A stretch of DNA of 33,338 nt from Thiovulum sp. ES (GTDB lineage Bacteria > Campylobacterota > Campylobacteria > Campylobacterales > Thiovulaceae): the NCBI GenBank assembly GCA_000276965.1, contig AKKQ01000017.1:1-33338 (forward strand). Reading direction: 5' to 3'. Each line of letters opens with the position of its first letter. Position 1 is the first letter of the stretch. The notes under the pieces are model-generated. The model was not told the DNA's origin and made no database searches. It saw only the letters and a list, made by a program, of their open reading frames with translations. Positions 2,493 through 23,943 of this stretch are shown piece by piece. The position numbers and the translations under genes are program-made.

Positions 2493-2900
2493 TCAATTGA
2501 AAATTAAATTTCCAAATTTTAAACCGACAAATGCAAAAAGAATAGTTCCAAAAAGGTTTAAACTCATATTCAAAAAAGCTCCGAAAAAATTTCCTCCTTG
2601 TAAAAGCAATAAATTTTCGTATGCAAAAGTTGAAAAAGTTGTTAATGCCCCGAGAAATCCAGTTGAGAGAAATGTTTTTATTTCTGGTGAAATCTCAAAA
2701 TTGTGAAAAATTGCAAAGAAAAATCCAATTAGGAGACTTCCAAGCAAATTTACTGAAAGTGTTCCGACTGGAATTGAGAGCAGATGAAAATTTTGGTTCG
2801 CGACTCCGTTTAAAATTAGTCGTAAGTTTGCACCAAAAAATCCACCAAATCCGACTGCTAAAATTGTTTGAATTGACAAAAGAAACCCCTTTATTTTCAC
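2493..2900 (-). CDS. crcB: CrcB/Fluc fluoride ion channel
   Basis: A 135-residue, four-helix membrane protein with the CrcB signatures: GGFFGANLR near residue 18, GTLSVNLLGSLLIGF around 46-60, and GFLGALTTFSTFAYE around 81-95. Proteins of this family assemble as antiparallel dimers and export fluoride. Length is typical (about 125-135). The start is GTG; the ribosome binding site is weak. The bat-like genes follow on the same strand after a 79-base gap, so crcB may head this transcription unit. I see no fluoride riboswitch in the short upstream region, which is shared with the divergent SRP RNA promoter. Confidence 0.93.
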   Translation of the reverse strand: MKIKGFLLSIQTILAVGFGGFFGANLRLILNGVANQNFHLLSIPVGTLSVNLLGSLLIGFFFAIFHNFEISPEIKTFLSTGFLGALTTFSTFAYENLLLLQGGNFFGAFLNMSLNLFGTILFAFVGLKFGNLIFN

Positions 2901-2925
2901 ATCAAGTCTAAAATTCTATGAGAAT

Positions 2926-2954
2926 TTGACGGATTATAAAAAATTGGTTACAAT
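2926..2954 (+). promoter_or_regulatory. Sigma70-type promoter of the SRP RNA
   Basis: TTGACG at 2926-2931 and TACAAT at 2949-2954 are separated by exactly 17 bases. This would start transcription at about 2960-2966, just before the SRP RNA fold. Confidence 0.75.
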
Positions 2955-2963
2955 TCTGCCAAT

Positions 2964-3057
2964 CTTTTCAGACCTATGCAATGATTTTGTAGGACACCGT
3001 GTCAGGATGGGAACATAGCAGCACATCTTACTTTTTCATGTGCCGTAGGTATCTGGA
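2964..3057 (+). ncRNA. ffs: Signal recognition particle RNA (4.5S, small bacterial type)
   Basis: The core matches the conserved domain IV hairpin that binds Ffh. TGT pairs with ACA around an asymmetric loop CAGG...AGCAG, then ATG pairs with CAT, and the tetraloop is GGAA (GTCAGGATGGGAACATAGCA, 3001-3020). An outer stem is formed by CAGACCTATG (2969-2978) with CGTAGG-TATCTG (3044-3055), allowing a 2-base bulge. Length is about 90-95 nt, as in other small bacterial SRP RNAs. The RNA guides inner-membrane protein insertion with Ffh and FtsY. The exact ends are inferred from the promoter and the closing stem. Confidence 0.92.
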
Positions 3058-3070
3058 GAGAGGTCTCTCC
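3055..3070 (+). terminator. Hairpin at the SRP RNA 3' end
   Basis: GGAGAG and CTCTCC form a 6-bp stem with loop AGGT immediately after the SRP RNA closing stem. There is no T-run, so it may be a processing or partial termination structure. Confidence 0.4.
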
Positions 3071-3105
3071 CATGATACAATTCAGTAAAAATTTTTGGAA
3101 ATTAA

Positions 3106-3996
3106 ATGAAACATTTAGTAAAAATTTATGATGAAAACTACGAAATGTTGGAAAGATTTATATCCAGCACACTTTTACGAATAAGCAAAAAAAAGAAAAT
3201 CGAAAATATTGATATTGAGAATATTTATAAGCTATTTCCAAGTTTAGAACTTGTTTATATGACGGATCACTCTTTTATTCAAACAACTCCAAATATTGAG
3301 AGAGGCGGAGTCAAGAAACCTGAACATGTTGGAGTCAAAAGAGATTATCTGCTTTACAATTTTGGAAAAAAAGTTGAAGATAAAATCGATATTACATGTG
3401 TAGGTGAAATTATAATTAAAGATCCTTACATTAGTGCAAATTCTGGAAATGTCTGTATCACTGTAATCCAGAAAGTTGATGAAGGATACATTCTTTTTGA
3501 TTTTAAATTACAGAGACTTCTTGAGAGATTTCACCTTTACCAAGAACACAAAATATTTGAGAGAGTTACACGATCTTTTTATGCTTTAATTTCGGTTGCA
3601 CTTTTATTAGTTTCAGTTTTTCTTGCAGGTTATGGAACTTTTACTTTTTTAGATTATGGAACTAATTCACCTGATTTAGAAGGGATGTTTAAACTCGTTG
3701 TTGCTTTAACTTTGAGTCTCGCAATTTTTGATTTGGGAAAAACTATTTTTGAACAAGAAGTTATTTCAAATGATGTTCATAGTGATACTTTTAAGCCAAA
3801 AACTCTTATGAACTTTACAGTTTCAATAATTATTGCCCTGATGATTGAGTCGCTTTTGATTGTTTTTAAAATCTCAATTACCGAGTATCAAGATTTAATT
3901 TATGCACTCTATTTAATTATCGGGACATCGATTCTCTTTGTATCTTTTTCAATTTTCTTTTTTCTCTATAAAAGAAGCTCAAAGAAAAAAAGGTAG
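3106..3996 (+). CDS. PDC/Cache-like sensor protein with four C-terminal membrane helices
   Basis: 296 residues. The first ~155 residues read as a PDC (Cache-like) sensor fold with the pattern FPSLELVYMTDHSFIQTTPN, RDYLLYNFGKK, DPYISANSGNVCITVIQKV and GYILFDFKL. About four hydrophobic helices follow: SFYALISVALLLVSVF, FKLVVALTLSLAIF, FTVSIIIALMIESLLIVF and LIYALYLIIGTSILFV. No kinase, GGDEF or methyl-accepting output domain is visible, and there is no N-terminal membrane segment, so the sensor module may be cytoplasmic. The start ATG has GGA 8 bases upstream; TACAAT at 3076-3081 is a candidate -10. The cytochrome c gene follows after 8 bases. Ligand and output are unknown. Confidence 0.65.
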   Translation: MKHLVKIYDENYEMLERFISSTLLRISKKKKIENIDIENIYKLFPSLELVYMTDHSFIQTTPNIERGGVKKPEHVGVKRDYLLYNFGKKVEDKIDITCVGEIIIKDPYISANSGNVCITVIQKVDEGYILFDFKLQRLLERFHLYQEHKIFERVTRSFYALISVALLLVSVFLAGYGTFTFLDYGTNSPDLEGMFKLVVALTLSLAIFDLGKTIFEQEVISNDVHSDTFKPKTLMNFTVSIIIALMIESLLIVFKISITEYQDLIYALYLIIGTSILFVSFSIFFFLYKRSSKKKR

Positions 3997-10365: not shown

Positions 10366-11172
10366 ATGAGTTTTAAACCAATTGCTCCACTGATGATCTC
10401 AACGGATAACGAAAAGCATATTTCAAAAATTGAAAAAATGGAGACAGATTCCATAATTTTAAATTTGGAAGATGGAGTTTCTGATAAGAAAAAAGCACTT
10501 GAAAACTGCAAAACAATTTTAAAAGATTTTCCAAGAAAGCAAAAATTTATTGTTCGTGTAAATGCACTTGGTGAAAATGGTGATTCTGAAATTTCAGAAA
10601 TCCAGAAATTCAAACCTGATGCTATTCGAGTTCCAAAAATTAGAAACAGCGATGAGGTTCAAAAAATTGAGAATTTGATTTTTGAAAAAATCGATATTCA
10701 TCTCTCAATTGAGACAAAAGAGGCTCTTTTAAATTTAGCAACTCTCAGAACTTCAAATCGTATCTCTGTCTTCTATTTAGGAATTCTTGACCTCATCGCT
10801 GATTTAGAACTCTCTCAAGATAAATTAGAACCAACAAATCCAATGGTTGGATATCTTCTTTCCCAATTTTTGGTAACTTCTAAAGCTCTCGGAGTTCATC
10901 CAGTCGCACCAGTTTTTCAGGATTACAAAAATGAAAAGCTTTTTCACGAATGGTTGGAGCTTGAAAAGAGAATTGGTTTTTCTGCAAAAGGTGTGATTTC
11001 TCCAACTCAAGCAAAAATTGTTACAGAGTTTTTTAGAAAAGAGGAGAGTGAAATTGAAAAAGCTCGTGAAATTGTTCAGCTTTTTCAAAAAAATGGAAGT
11101 TTTGCACATGATAAATATGGGTATATTGATGAACCAATTTACAAAGGTGCTTTGGCAATTTTAAATAAGTGA
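10366..11172 (+). CDS. HpcH/HpaI aldolase / CitE-like lyase family protein (copy 1)
   Basis: 268 residues with the TIM-barrel CitE-like pattern: DSIILNLEDGVSDKKKAL near the N-terminus (acidic metal and substrate region), FIVRVNALG, DAIRVPKI, IHLSIETKEALLNL and a late GVISPTQAKIVTEFF. Relatives cleave or form malyl/citryl-CoA-type C-C bonds. No citrate lyase partners (CitD, CitF) are nearby, so this is a stand-alone CitE-like enzyme of unknown substrate. The ATG has AGGA upstream. Motif copies lie at 10650-10658 and 10790-10798, 139 bases apart and inverted. It ends at a bidirectional terminator. Confidence 0.8.
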   Translation: MSFKPIAPLMISTDNEKHISKIEKMETDSIILNLEDGVSDKKKALENCKTILKDFPRKQKFIVRVNALGENGDSEISEIQKFKPDAIRVPKIRNSDEVQKIENLIFEKIDIHLSIETKEALLNLATLRTSNRISVFYLGILDLIADLELSQDKLEPTNPMVGYLLSQFLVTSKALGVHPVAPVFQDYKNEKLFHEWLELEKRIGFSAKGVISPTQAKIVTEFFRKEESEIEKAREIVQLFQKNGSFAHDKYGYIDEPIYKGALAILNK

Positions 11173-14907: not shown

Positions 14908-16050
14908 TTACCAGTCGGCAAGTTTTCCAATTTCATTTTTTGGAAGTTCAGTTCCATATTCAATTCGAGTTGGTCTTTCAGAAGATTCTAAATTTTCAAA
15001 AAGCCATTTTTGCAACTCTTCTTTGTCAGTTTCATTTTTCAAGATTGCAAACATTTTTAAGCGATCACCATCAAGTCGTAAAACTAAATCTTGTAATAAT
15101 TCACTTCTTAAAATTCGCTCTTTTGTCTCTTCCAAATTGACATTATTTCCTGCAATTTGAATCACAGAATCGAATCGACCAAGAATTTTAAATCTATTTT
15201 CTCCTCTTATTGAATCATAAAACCACTCAATCTGATCAGGAAAAACATCTTCTTCTAAAAAAGGAAGTTGTAAAAAGCCTTCGCTGTTGTCATTTTTCCA
15301 ACCAATTCCAGAAGTCTCTGTTGATCCGTAGATTTCAAAAATATTTTGCAGTCCCATTTGCAACCCTCGTTCTCTAGTTTCAGAAGAGAGTGGAGCAGTA
15401 GAACAGACCGCACTAACACCAAAGGGAAATTTAAAATTAAAGTCAGCAAAAAGTTCTATCAAATATGGTGTCATAACGATGAGGTCGCCCTCTTCTAATG
15501 CAAATTTGAGTCTTGGTGTTGGAATTGGGTCTTTAAATTCACGAGAAACTCCAGCAACTTTTGGAACTAAAATTGCGAAAATAAATCCGTAAATATGATG
15601 TTGTGGAACAAGTGAAATTACTCTTTTTGGCTGAATTTTTTCAACCCAAAATTTCGCCTCTTTCTCTAGTTTTTCCAATTTGTGAGAAGTTCCTTCTGGA
15701 TTTCCAGTTGTTCCTGAAGAGAAAAAAGATAAATTTTCTTGATTTGCTTTTTGAATAATTTGAATCCAGTCGCCAATTTTTCGTTCTGAGAGAAGAAGTT
15801 CTTCTATTCCGCCAGTTTTATGGAGTTCAAAAAATAGATTTGTTCGTGTCGCAACTGTTACGAGTTCAAGGGAATCAAGTCGCAAAATATTTCCATTCAT
15901 TGAGGCATTGTAGCCCCAACTTTTTGTTTTTGCTATTGTCAAATGCTCTTTTCGTAAAAGTGAAATCTCCTTTTGAAGAATCGAGATTAAAACATCGTAA
16001 ATCTCTTTTTCTCCCAAAATATCATTTATAGTCTTTTTACGAAAATCCAA
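14908..16050 (-). CDS. AMP-forming ligase with N-terminal acyl-carrier-like domain; probable p-coumarate activation for PYP
   Basis: 380 residues. Residues ~15-102 look like an acyl carrier protein: a first helix, then LRLDSLELVTVATRTNLFFE with Ser60 in the D-S-L site for phosphopantetheine, and a last helix IGDWIQIIQKA. Residues ~105-380 are an AMP-binding (ANL) enzyme: P-loop SSGTTGNPEG (111-120, Glu for the usual Lys), YGSTET (241-246), GRFD (291-294) and the C-terminal catalytic Lys in PKNEIGKL (Lys376). It is short for this superfamily. The TTG start has AAGGA upstream within the chemoreceptor-PYP gene, which it overlaps by 25 bases. PYP needs p-coumarate activated by such a ligase, so this is the likely enzyme; the substrate is inferred. 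A motif copy lies at 15477-15485. Confidence 0.8.
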   Translation of the reverse strand: MDFRKKTINDILGEKEIYDVLISILQKEISLLRKEHLTIAKTKSWGYNASMNGNILRLDSLELVTVATRTNLFFELHKTGGIEELLLSERKIGDWIQIIQKANQENLSFFSSGTTGNPEGTSHKLEKLEKEAKFWVEKIQPKRVISLVPQHHIYGFIFAILVPKVAGVSREFKDPIPTPRLKFALEEGDLIVMTPYLIELFADFNFKFPFGVSAVCSTAPLSSETRERGLQMGLQNIFEIYGSTETSGIGWKNDNSEGFLQLPFLEEDVFPDQIEWFYDSIRGENRFKILGRFDSVIQIAGNNVNLEETKERILRSELLQDLVLRLDGDRLKMFAILKNETDKEELQKWLFENLESSERPTRIEYGTELPKNEIGKLADW

Positions 16051-17570
16051 TATGTTTTATCCTTATCTGCTTCTTCTTCAGCATTTTTCATCTGAATCTT
16101 AACTTTTGTCGGTGCCATGTTGTAGTCAAATGTATAATCAAACATAACATTAAGGTCATCTTTATTAACACCATCGTTAAATTTACCGTAGAAAACTGGA
16201 GATTTTGTACAAGGAGCGACTTCGTTAAAGAAACTTTTCCCAACAACCTCTCTAGGGTCTCGACCTGTAATATCACCTTCCGCACTGTTGTATTTAACAA
16301 TGTTTCCATCTTTATCAAGTTCAACAACACCAAATGACATATTGTCGAGCTGTTCCTGACTCATTGAGTTCATTGCACCCTCAAGTTCTTTGGGATCAAA
16401 TTTAACAACTTCTAATTTTTTAGCTGTTTTGTTTTTGTCGTATTTTCCATCAATTGCATCAGCGAAAGTTTTTGAGAGTTCAGCAACTTCAGTCGCAATT
16501 GTGTCTGTATCACCAGCAACATCAAGAGTTTCTATTGTGATTTCATAAATTTCGTGCATAGATTTATCAACTTTATTAACTGACTCTTCTACTTTGTGGA
16601 TTTTTGAGTTAATTGCAACAACATCAACATTTAGTGCATCGATTGTTTTATCAACAATTTCTAGCGATTCCATTGTCTTTTCAGCGAGTTTTCTAACCTC
16701 ATCGGCAACAACTGCAAATCCTCTACCGTGGATACCAGCTCTAGCAGCCTCAATTGATGTATTGAGTGAAATAAGTTGTGTCTGATCTGCAATATAGTTG
16801 ATCATATGCACAACCTCTTTAATTTCTCTCGATTTTTTTGCAATCTCATCAGAATCTTCAGCAATTTGATGAACTTCGCCCCGAATATTTTCAACTGATT
16901 TTGTTGTGTGTTGAATTGTTGTTGATTGTTTATTTACAGCTGTACTAAGTTTTGTAACACCTTTATCAAGCGAATCTGCATTTTCTTGGAGAATGTTTCC
17001 ATTTTCAAGTAGATATTTTCTATCATCTACCAAACCTTGAACCATCTCATTAAAATCTCTTGTTACATCATCAAATTTAAATCCGTAATGCACATCCATT
17101 CTGTAATCAAGGTTTGAATCTTTTATCTCTCTAAAAGACTCCATTAAAACTGTCATGTATGAATTGTAGTTACTAATAGCTTCATTGAATGCACTCTTAA
17201 CTGCTTCAATATCTTTAGTATATTTTCCAGTCATATATTTATTAAATTGACCACTTCTTGCAAGTTCTGCAATTTCCACCATTTCCGTGATAAAAGCTTT
17301 GTACTCCTCTTCTCTCCCTTGAATTCTCTCAAGTTCTCGTGTATTGTAGTTTGCTCTGTCAAGAAGTGTTGGCAACTCCTCTTTTGACTGTGTTTGCAGT
17401 GATTTTAATTTCATCTCTGCATAATCAAACTCTCTAATAAGAGACCATTGATAAGCAACGGATAAAATAACACCTAGTGCAAAAAGAGGGTATCCAATAT
17501 ATTGAAACCCAACTATTCCAAGAGCAAAGCCTGTTAAAATTATAAACAATATACCTATCTGTTTAACCAT
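16026..17570 (-). CDS. Chemoreceptor (MCP) fused to a C-terminal photoactive yellow protein domain
   Basis: 514 residues. Two adjacent hydrophobic segments (~5-40) have almost no periplasmic loop; HAMP-like/coiled-coil helices follow (~85-190). An MCP signalling hairpin comes next, with the tip around 260-298 (ISLNTSIEAARAGIHGRGFA, VADEVRKLAEKT). Residues ~391-514 align nearly gap-free with Halorhodospira PYP: EGDITGRDP, VAPCT, YGKF, FDYTFDY and WIFVKRL. The chromophore pocket is intact: Tyr427 (Tyr42), Glu431 (Glu46), Thr435 (Thr50), Arg437 (Arg52), Cys454 (Cys69), Tyr483 (Tyr98) and Met485 (Met100), PYP numbers in brackets. It has one four-residue insertion near the end. This predicts blue-light control of CheA from inside the cell. 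The ATG has AAGGG upstream. Confidence 0.93.
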   Translation of the reverse strand: MVKQIGILFIILTGFALGIVGFQYIGYPLFALGVILSVAYQWSLIREFDYAEMKLKSLQTQSKEELPTLLDRANYNTRELERIQGREEEYKAFITEMVEIAELARSGQFNKYMTGKYTKDIEAVKSAFNEAISNYNSYMTVLMESFREIKDSNLDYRMDVHYGFKFDDVTRDFNEMVQGLVDDRKYLLENGNILQENADSLDKGVTKLSTAVNKQSTTIQHTTKSVENIRGEVHQIAEDSDEIAKKSREIKEVVHMINYIADQTQLISLNTSIEAARAGIHGRGFAVVADEVRKLAEKTMESLEIVDKTIDALNVDVVAINSKIHKVEESVNKVDKSMHEIYEITIETLDVAGDTDTIATEVAELSKTFADAIDGKYDKNKTAKKLEVVKFDPKELEGAMNSMSQEQLDNMSFGVVELDKDGNIVKYNSAEGDITGRDPREVVGKSFFNEVAPCTKSPVFYGKFNDGVNKDDLNVMFDYTFDYNMAPTKVKIQMKNAEEEADKDKTYWIFVKRL

Positions 17571-17634
17571 TTTAAATCCCTTTTAACTTTTCTCTTGTAA
17601 TGATATATTATTATCCTCTATTTTAAGTTGAATT

Positions 17635-18294
17635 TTATTTTATATAGAAGGTTTCGTATATTGTTTCATGAAAACATGTTTCTAAATCATCTCGAAGTGT
17701 ATAATCCTCAACTTCGCAATCTCGGTCAAAAACATAAACATCACCTAAATCTTTTGCATAATATACTTTTGCAATATCATGCTCTTCACTATAACTACAA
17801 ACTTCACTAATTATAATTTCAACTTCTAACACATTTTCAAAAGTCTGATTTCCATCTTCTGGAGTCTCAAAAGTTTTTGTCGAATAGAATTGAATAACTC
17901 TAAGCTCTTCACTCTTATTACAATCGTCTTCGGTAACTGAATTTAGGGAGTATTCACCAACAGAAAGGTATCTATCATGATAAGTATCTTCATCTAAATC
18001 TTTTACAGAATCTTCTGTAATTTCTAAGTTCCAATTTTCTGTTGAACGAAAATTTCCATTGACCGAAAACTGAATATTTTCCGTTCCATCATAATTGTTG
18101 TTTAAATAGTGTTTGTAATTTTTTGAAACTGTTTCGCTCGGAAAAATATATTCAGATAAATCATAAATAGTAGATGTTACGATTGGATTTGTATCCATAT
18201 TTTCTGTGTTGGAATCAGAATCGCTCTCTCCACAACCTGAAAATGTTGAAATTGCCAAAGCTGAAACTATTAAAAAAGATGATGTTTTATTCAA
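17635..18294 (-). CDS. Acidic, Cys-containing lipoprotein of unknown function
   Basis: 219 residues. The signal peptide ends in a lipobox (STFSGC), with lipid attachment at Cys21. The mature part is strongly acidic and has four further Cys (DDCNK, EVCSY, RDCEV, ETCFH), enough for two disulfides in the periplasm or at the outer membrane. No domain is recognised. The TTG start has AAGG 8-9 bases upstream. It lies 64 bases upstream of the chemoreceptor-PYP gene on the same strand without a visible terminator, so cotranscription is possible, although that gap contains AT-rich -10-like sequence. Confidence 0.7.
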   Translation of the reverse strand: MNKTSSFLIVSALAISTFSGCGESDSDSNTENMDTNPIVTSTIYDLSEYIFPSETVSKNYKHYLNNNYDGTENIQFSVNGNFRSTENWNLEITEDSVKDLDEDTYHDRYLSVGEYSLNSVTEDDCNKSEELRVIQFYSTKTFETPEDGNQTFENVLEVEIIISEVCSYSEEHDIAKVYYAKDLGDVYVFDRDCEVEDYTLRDDLETCFHETIYETFYIK

Positions 18295-23061: not shown

Positions 23062-23065
<4 letters not shown>

Positions 23066-23943
23066 GAAGAGAGAATTTATCTTTTTTTAATTTGGGTGCT
23101 TCGCTTTACATTCCTGCAACTCACAAAAACTTGTATTCAACAATTTTTGAAAACAGATTTCCGCATCTAAAATCAATAATTATCTGTTTGGAAGATTCTA
23201 TAAATGACGATGAGCTCGAATTTGCTGAAGAGAAACTAAAAGATATTTTGCAAAAGCTTGATCGAAATCGTGATTTATTGATTTTTTTGAGACCACGAAG
23301 TTTCCGACATTTCCAAAAGTTACTTTCATTTAACCACATTGATAAAGTTGATGGATTTGTTATTCCAAAATTTAATTTAGAAGAGTTTCACCGTTGGCGA
23401 CACTACTTTTTTGAAGATTTCTACTTTATGCCAACTTTTGAAAATGAAGTTGTTTTTGATGAAATAGAGTTAAGGAAAATCCGAAACGAGCTTTTGCAAT
23501 TTAAAGACTCTATTTTGACTTTGCGAATTGGTAGCGAAGATATTGGAAAAATTCTCGGAATTAAGCGAGGTTGTCAAAAAACAATTTATGAAATTCCAAT
23601 TTTTACAAAATCTGTTACCGACCTCATCGCTATTTTTAAACCGAAAGGTTTTCATTTGTCATCACCTGTTTTTTCATGCTTCAAGGATTATGAGACTTTG
23701 CAAAGGGAAGTTCTTTCAGATTTGGAAAATGGACTTTTTAGCAAAAGTGCAATCCACCCAAAACAGGTAGAAATTATTCAAAATATATATCGTGTTTCCG
23801 AAAATGAGTTGCAAATGGCAGAAAAAGTTGTTCTTGAAGATCGAGCTATTTTTTCTCAAAATGGTCTCATGCTAGAGAAGAGAACCCACTCCGTTTGGGC
23901 GGATAATCTTCTTCGCAGAGCAAAACTCTTTGGAAAGCATTAA
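23062..23943 (+). CDS. HpcH/HpaI / CitE-like family protein (copy 2)
   Basis: 293 residues. The N-terminus ([17 protein letters not shown]) followed by [19 protein letters not shown] and LLIFLRPRS fits CitE-like proteins of the type found in tellurium-resistance (ter) biosynthetic clusters. [14 protein letters not shown] and [15 protein letters not shown] mark the later barrel strands. It shares little sequence with the copy at 10366, so it is a distinct paralogue. The TTG start overlaps trpF. No ter genes are in the window. A motif copy lies at 23621-23629. The 3' end abuts the convergent kinase gene with a 4-base overlap. Confidence 0.75.

Follow-up and report, generated by a model that had tools for sequence, protein, structure and literature searches.

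How photoactive yellow protein (PYP) is connected to the flagellar motor has been an open question since phototaxis was described in Halorhodospira halophila. A locus in Thiovulum sp. ES bears directly on it. Thiovulum is a sulfur-oxidising, fast-swimming bacterium, and a reading made from the sequence only had pointed to a chemoreceptor (MCP) with a C-terminal PYP domain in a window of 33,338 nucleotides (the whole stretch of DNA analysed, i.e. contig AKKQ01000017.1). Is the fusion genuine, is its PYP domain likely to carry a chromophore, and could it reach CheA? A PYP-MCP fusion combined with chromophore genes and one CheA would be the simplest wiring for testing the link between PYP and the flagellum.

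The fusion gene and its chromophore pocket

The frame was found to run uninterrupted from ATG to TAA through 514 codons, so that the single MCP-PYP gene proposed by the sequence-only reading stands, on the minus strand (Table 1). Hydropathy placed two hydrophobic stretches in residues 1-43, of which the second is weak, in line with the two membrane helices and lack of a periplasmic sensor claimed earlier. Between the membrane and the signalling hairpin, PF00672 gave E=0.05 at residues 142-181, below its cut-off; this weakly HAMP-like stretch did not figure in the sequence-only reading. The MCPsignal family (PF00015) matched residues 232-370 with 110.5 bits against a cut-off of 34.6, and the CcaA model in a profile scan aligned positions 43-374 with the cytoplasmic half of the receptor.

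Table 1. Features of the MCP-PYP locus, numbered from the first letter of the window.
Feature	Position	Strand	Basis
MCP-PYP fusion gene, 514 aa	16026..17570	minus	ORF call and domain searches
Shine-Dalgarno-like stretch, purine-rich (aaaaggga), ahead of the ATG	17577..17584	minus	by eye alone
N-terminal transmembrane hairpin, residues ~5-43, without periplasmic domain	17442..17558	minus	hydropathy; layout shared with three homologous fusions
Degenerate HAMP-like stretch, residues ~130-181	17028..17183	minus	PF00672, below cut-off
MCP signalling hairpin, residues 201-370	16461..16970	minus	PF00015; aligned with the other fusions over 170 columns without gaps
Hairpin tip, residues 260-290, six unusual substitutions	16701..16793	minus	comparison with other Campylobacterota receptors
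Charged MCP-PYP linker, residues 371-386	16413..16460	minus	DTIA motif and PYP start separated by 31-35 aa in 4/4 fusions
PYP domain with N-terminal cap, residues 387-514	16029..16412	minus	TIGR02373; PDB PYP match; AlphaFold model
Codon of Cys454 (= Cys69), predicted p-coumaric acid thioester site	16209..16211	minus	alignment
p-Coumaryl-CoA ligase (pCL), best reading by context, overlapping or abutting the fusion gene	14908..16050	minus	TIGR02372; start TTG 16050 or TTG 16017

A predicted lipoprotein of 219 aa (recognised by eye; 17635-18294, minus strand) lies 64 bases upstream of the fusion in the same direction, and gave zero matches in Pfam and NCBIfam. Elsewhere in the window, two translations judged by eye to resemble CitE/HpcH-HpaI aldolases are found 12 kb apart (10366-11172 and 23062-23943).

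The PYP domain scored 161.5 bits with TIGR02373 (curated cut-off 143.05), and a phmmer search matched PDB PYP with E~1e-44 across residues 386/387-514. The domain had been placed at about 391-514. It is indeed complete, cap included, but begins at about residue 387 rather than 391. Pfam recognised the region as a general PAS fold. An AlphaFold model of the PYP domain had a pLDDT of 86 and a TM-score of ~0.87 to 2phy, 1uwn and other PYP structures. The full-length model, computed from one sequence, reached a pLDDT of 54 overall, with the PYP part the worst, and was not used for geometry.

Aligned with H. halophila PYP, the domain is identical at 71 of 125 positions (57%) and keeps the N-terminal cap. 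The retained pocket residues are Y427 (= Tyr42), E431 (Glu46), T435 (Thr50), R437 (Arg52), F447 (Phe62), V451, A452, P453, C454 (Cys69), F481 (Phe96), Y483 (Tyr98) and M485 (Met100). All those singled out by the sequence-only reading are thus present; the sole difference in the pocket is the conservative replacement of Ile31 by Val. Published PYPs bearing Thr50 absorb at 440-447 nm (PMC12826048).

Predicted chromophore genes and related cassettes

The product of the gene just downstream of the fusion matched nearly the full TIGR02372 model with 261.7 bits, below the curated cut-off of 334.7, while the next family reached 49.8 bits. The P-loop and YGSTE motifs were both found. With the equivalog cut-off unreached, the product is best read, by context, as pCL. 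An ATG occurs right after the fusion stop (16010-16030, minus strand), and the pCL of G859, one of the genomes described below, starts at such a position. The Thiovulum ATG is out of the pCL frame and its own frame closes after 12 codons, so that either one of the two TTG codons in Table 1 is the pCL start or the draft contains an indel.

One aromatic amino acid lyase (TAL-like) was detected in the Thiovulum genome, on contig C5 and not on the fusion contig. It matched PF00221 with 439 bits and carries the ASG (MIO) motif as GASGDL. Its best profile matches were histidine ammonia-lyase models, far below cut-off, and no lyase equivalog cut-off was reached; it has NQD where the best-matching structure, a probable histidine lyase, reads QED. 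No urocanase was found in the Thiovulum genome, so that a role in histidine catabolism, i.e. as histidine ammonia-lyase, was rejected for this gene. Compared with the TALs of three MCP-PYP cassettes in other genomes (see below), it showed 53-55% identity to two and 46% to the third, and the RFH and NQDKVSMG motifs are common to all. Since its closest kin sit inside MCP-PYP cassettes, the lyase is tied to the PYP system. Thiovulum sp. ES is the only one of five genomes in its family in which the lyase and a strong pCL match were found, and the PYP part had no visible match in the remaining four. In this small sample of five, fusion, pCL and TAL come and go together.

A search for further fusions, suggested along with the original prediction, covered 228 genomes of another Campylobacterota family and yielded three PYP domains of full length, encoded in separate ORFs of ~480-515 aa. 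All three ORFs prove to be MCP-PYP fusions, in which an N-terminal membrane hairpin is followed by a signalling hairpin and a C-terminal PYP. The signalling hairpin has 170 residues in all four fusions and ends in a D-x-D-T-I-A motif. The three additional PYP domains keep all pocket residues save for I31V throughout and Y98H in one. pCL abuts the fusion gene directly in each of the three genomes; in two of them TAL comes next after pCL, while the third has it in divergent orientation, and the cassettes of G859 and G836 are complete three-gene runs. In one of the three genomes, the contig of the cassette also carries cheA and cheW, ~2-4 kb away. The same architecture, with its own pCL and TAL, in three genomes of another family argues that the Thiovulum fusion is not an assembly artefact. 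A frameshift separating MCP and PYP, the error that had been feared at the outset, is contradicted by both the continuous frame and these homologues.

The pCLs of these three cassettes are short (354, 354 and 294 aa; L099 1055-2119, L100 7212-8276 and L101 5713-6597), and in the two that were scanned the TIGR02372 match ends ~45 positions before the model end, whereas that of the Thiovulum pCL is complete. At a further locus (L083, contig C39 of genome G350, 2885-3538), a PYP truncated by ~28 residues at its N-terminus is joined to a TAL remnant, which lies on the opposite strand and consists of the C-terminal 115 aa; pCL comes directly after this pair. Here the start of both the PYP and the TAL gene has been removed by deletion or misassembly.

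PYP above the curated cut-off was found in two of 397 sampled Campylobacterota genomes, which makes PYP an infrequent, patchily distributed trait in this phylum. In a tree of the signalling hairpin the four fusions clustered together (bootstrap 95, SH-aLRT 49; 94% of bootstrap trees), which favours, though it does not prove, a single fusion event behind the four Campylobacterota MCP-PYPs.

We have also looked for traces of the origin of the Thiovulum locus. Four relatives keep tig-clpP, and the upstream genes of the Thiovulum locus are absent there in all; no clean empty insertion site upstream of tig was found in these four. Base composition gave no sign of recent import. A rule relating the cassette to light or dark habitats was dropped, the cassette being absent from putative marine relatives as from a putative cave strain.

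Outside Campylobacterota, no evident MCP-PYP was seen in 399 drawn Pseudomonadota genomes, though these included three long ORFs that matched PYP more weakly. PYPs and PAS proteins were matched in a plasmid search, and a scan of genome contigs found PYPs in Acidisphaera and Acidobacteria, stand-alone where the reading frame was inspected. Acidisphaera sp. L21 (G419, L065-L070) has one PYP fragment and four complete PYP genes, of which two form a divergent pair. Five PYP-like domains on IMG/VR contigs filed as viral (L094-L098) keep Cys69 and Glu46 with Phe or Val at position 42, and are preceded by an N-terminal stretch with CxxC pairs that is zinc-ribbon-like.

Predicted coupling to CheA and rival explanations

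The Thiovulum genome (2.08 Mb in 206 contigs) encodes 14 receptors and three CheW-domain proteins. The latter form one cluster composed of CheV (assigned from length and position alone), a CheA that has a receiver domain at its C-terminus, and CheW. The F3 class, which in Campylobacterota is the one coupled to the flagellum, has this cheV-cheA-cheW make-up (PMC9321776). With one CheA in the genome, any control of the kinase by the receptor acts on the flagellar system. From this gene content, we infer that the fusion controls CheA. The earlier prediction of a cytoplasmic blue-light domain of the PYP type on a Campylobacterota MCP is borne out by the domains, the predicted chromophore enzymes and the single flagellar-type CheA found in the genome.

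The tip of the signalling hairpin calls for caution. Its sequence in the Thiovulum fusion, IADQTQLISLNTSIEAARAGIHGRGF, departs from the 26-residue consensus of nearly all receptors compared (a comparison that counts the Thiovulum fusion itself once, as L022). The substitutions against other Campylobacterota receptors are N265Q, L267I, A268S, A271T, A272S and E280I; in the other three fusions the tip follows the consensus. The core residues Glu274, Arg277 and Asn270 are kept, and the GRGFAVVADEV arm is intact. Coupling to CheA is thus not to be taken for granted given six unusual tip residues, though the receptor may still signal despite them.

We consider a membrane-anchored, cytoplasmic p-coumaric-acid blue-light receptor acting on the sole flagellar CheA to be the best explanation of the locus (probability of about 0.8), because of the overlapping pCL, the one TAL-like gene, the lack of a urocanase and the sole CheA in a flagellar-type operon. 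By the H. halophila pathway, TAL would convert tyrosine to p-coumaric acid and pCL would turn this into the CoA thioester, from which p-coumaric acid would be attached to Cys454 in the PYP domain. The chromophore would then be isomerised by blue light near 445-447 nm. In H. halophila PYP the N-terminal cap is freed in the signalling state. In the fusion, the signalling state may likewise loosen the cap, which is tethered to the returning MCP arm by a linker of ~30 aa that is probably flexible. The second arm of an MCP returns to the membrane-proximal end, so that a C-terminal domain comes to lie near the HAMP/adaptation region and not at the kinase tip. PYP would therefore sit beside the HAMP-like/adaptation region, where it could change receptor packing, and the signal would pass along the hairpin, reach CheW and the cell's one CheA, and so bias swimming. 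By analogy, a tethered-partner mechanism, like that of CetA/CetB or of the Leptospira PYP-receptor pairs, would fit better than a rigid continuous helix. The receptor would probably serve to avoid light or to keep position in sulfidic mats exposed to the sun, with a response of either sign; the literature searched gave no record of a light response in Thiovulum.

Three other explanations were weighed. The receptor might be photoactive and yet not drive CheA, being decoupled or dominant-negative, or acting via mixed trimers only. The six changes fall on nearly invariant tip positions and are absent from the other three fusions, and the Thiovulum fusion lies on a long branch in the receptor tree. 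However, the tip core and the GRGFAVVADEV arm survive, the hairpin arms are identical in length across the fusions, and two other receptors of the same genome (L017 and L018) also vary in the tip. We therefore regard decoupling as unlikely. That the PYP domain does without p-coumaric acid and serves as a conventional PAS sensor of redox state or a small ligand is less probable again: Pfam does see a general PAS fold, and redox sensing has been proposed for some PYP homologues (PMC9664959), but the pocket of Cys69, Tyr42 and Glu46 is complete in the four fusions and the G350 fragment, a pCL gene lies beside every one of them, and a TAL occurs in each genome with a full-length fusion.

It is hardly credible that the MCP and PYP genes were joined in a chimera of assembly or amplification. 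The Thiovulum ES genome was derived from amplified single cells, and its four family relatives lack any visible PYP match. Against this, the frame is continuous and the pCL gene comes directly after it; three independent genomes have fusions of equal hairpin length, with the DTIA motif and a similar linker length; and a like fusion has already been published elsewhere.

Returning to the blue-light receptor, a broader model would have the Campylobacterota cassette (MCP-PYP, pCL and TAL) arise by one fusion on the phylum's own receptor and move by patchy transfer between sulfur-bacterial families, with a tethered, light-released cap touching the membrane-proximal end of the hairpin and feeding the sole flagellar CheA in Thiovulum ES. 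We put this forward tentatively, the balance being tipped slightly against it in this full form.

Relation to known systems

According to Dohmen et al. (2025, PMC12826048), MCP-PYP was first noted in Methylomicrobium alcaliphilum and 12 such fusions are now reported, with and without HAMP or membrane helices. The fusion as such is therefore not novel, a point that the sequence-only reading had left undecided. Since PYP is C-terminal in all 12, the placing of the sensor behind the hairpin, first thought unusual, is the rule among the fusions described there. The same paper reports that the MCP-PYP domain of Nitrincola alkalilacustris absorbs at 447 nm with a photocycle of 0.5 s, that phototaxis was not detected in Nitrincola, and that Campylobacterota contribute <1% of the PYPs (PMC12826048). 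Its operon table has no MCP entry and gives TAL in ~5% and pCL in ~32% of pyp operons. These figures make the MCP-PYP/pCL/TAL arrangement in Campylobacterota the main addition of the present analysis. No mention of PYP together with Thiovulum was found in the literature searched. What is added, as predicted from gene content, is a set of Campylobacterota fusions, usually in a self-sufficient cassette of receptor, pCL and TAL, plus the single-CheA context. The range of MCP-PYPs is thereby widened to include members of the Campylobacterota, among them Thiovulum, which lives as a chemolithotroph rather than a phototroph. The genera named for MCP-PYP in the published survey are gammaproteobacterial.

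Both the published fusions and that of Thiovulum have PYP behind the MCP signalling domain, with a predicted input to CheA, and variants without HAMP are included among the former. The Nitrincola protein has a HAMP domain, whereas the Thiovulum receptor has a short membrane hairpin, a degenerate HAMP-like stretch and an overlapping pCL gene. In Leptospira, PYP is paired with a sensorless membrane-helix chemoreceptor as two proteins (PMC9664959), while in Thiovulum the two are found in one chain. CetA/CetB, which mediates energy taxis in Campylobacter jejuni, similarly combines a sensorless membrane receptor with a cytoplasmic PAS domain, but this is an FAD-PAS in a separate protein, unlike the fused PYP of the p-coumarate type in Thiovulum. 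The pyp-pCL-TAL operon of H. halophila likewise joins PYP to the two chromophore genes, though PYP stands alone there. Finally, Ppr of Rhodospirillum centenum, a PYP-phytochrome-kinase, binds CheW (PMC2993699). PYP would thus be directed towards chemotaxis in both systems, from the N-terminus of a histidine kinase in Ppr and from the C-terminus of an MCP in Thiovulum.
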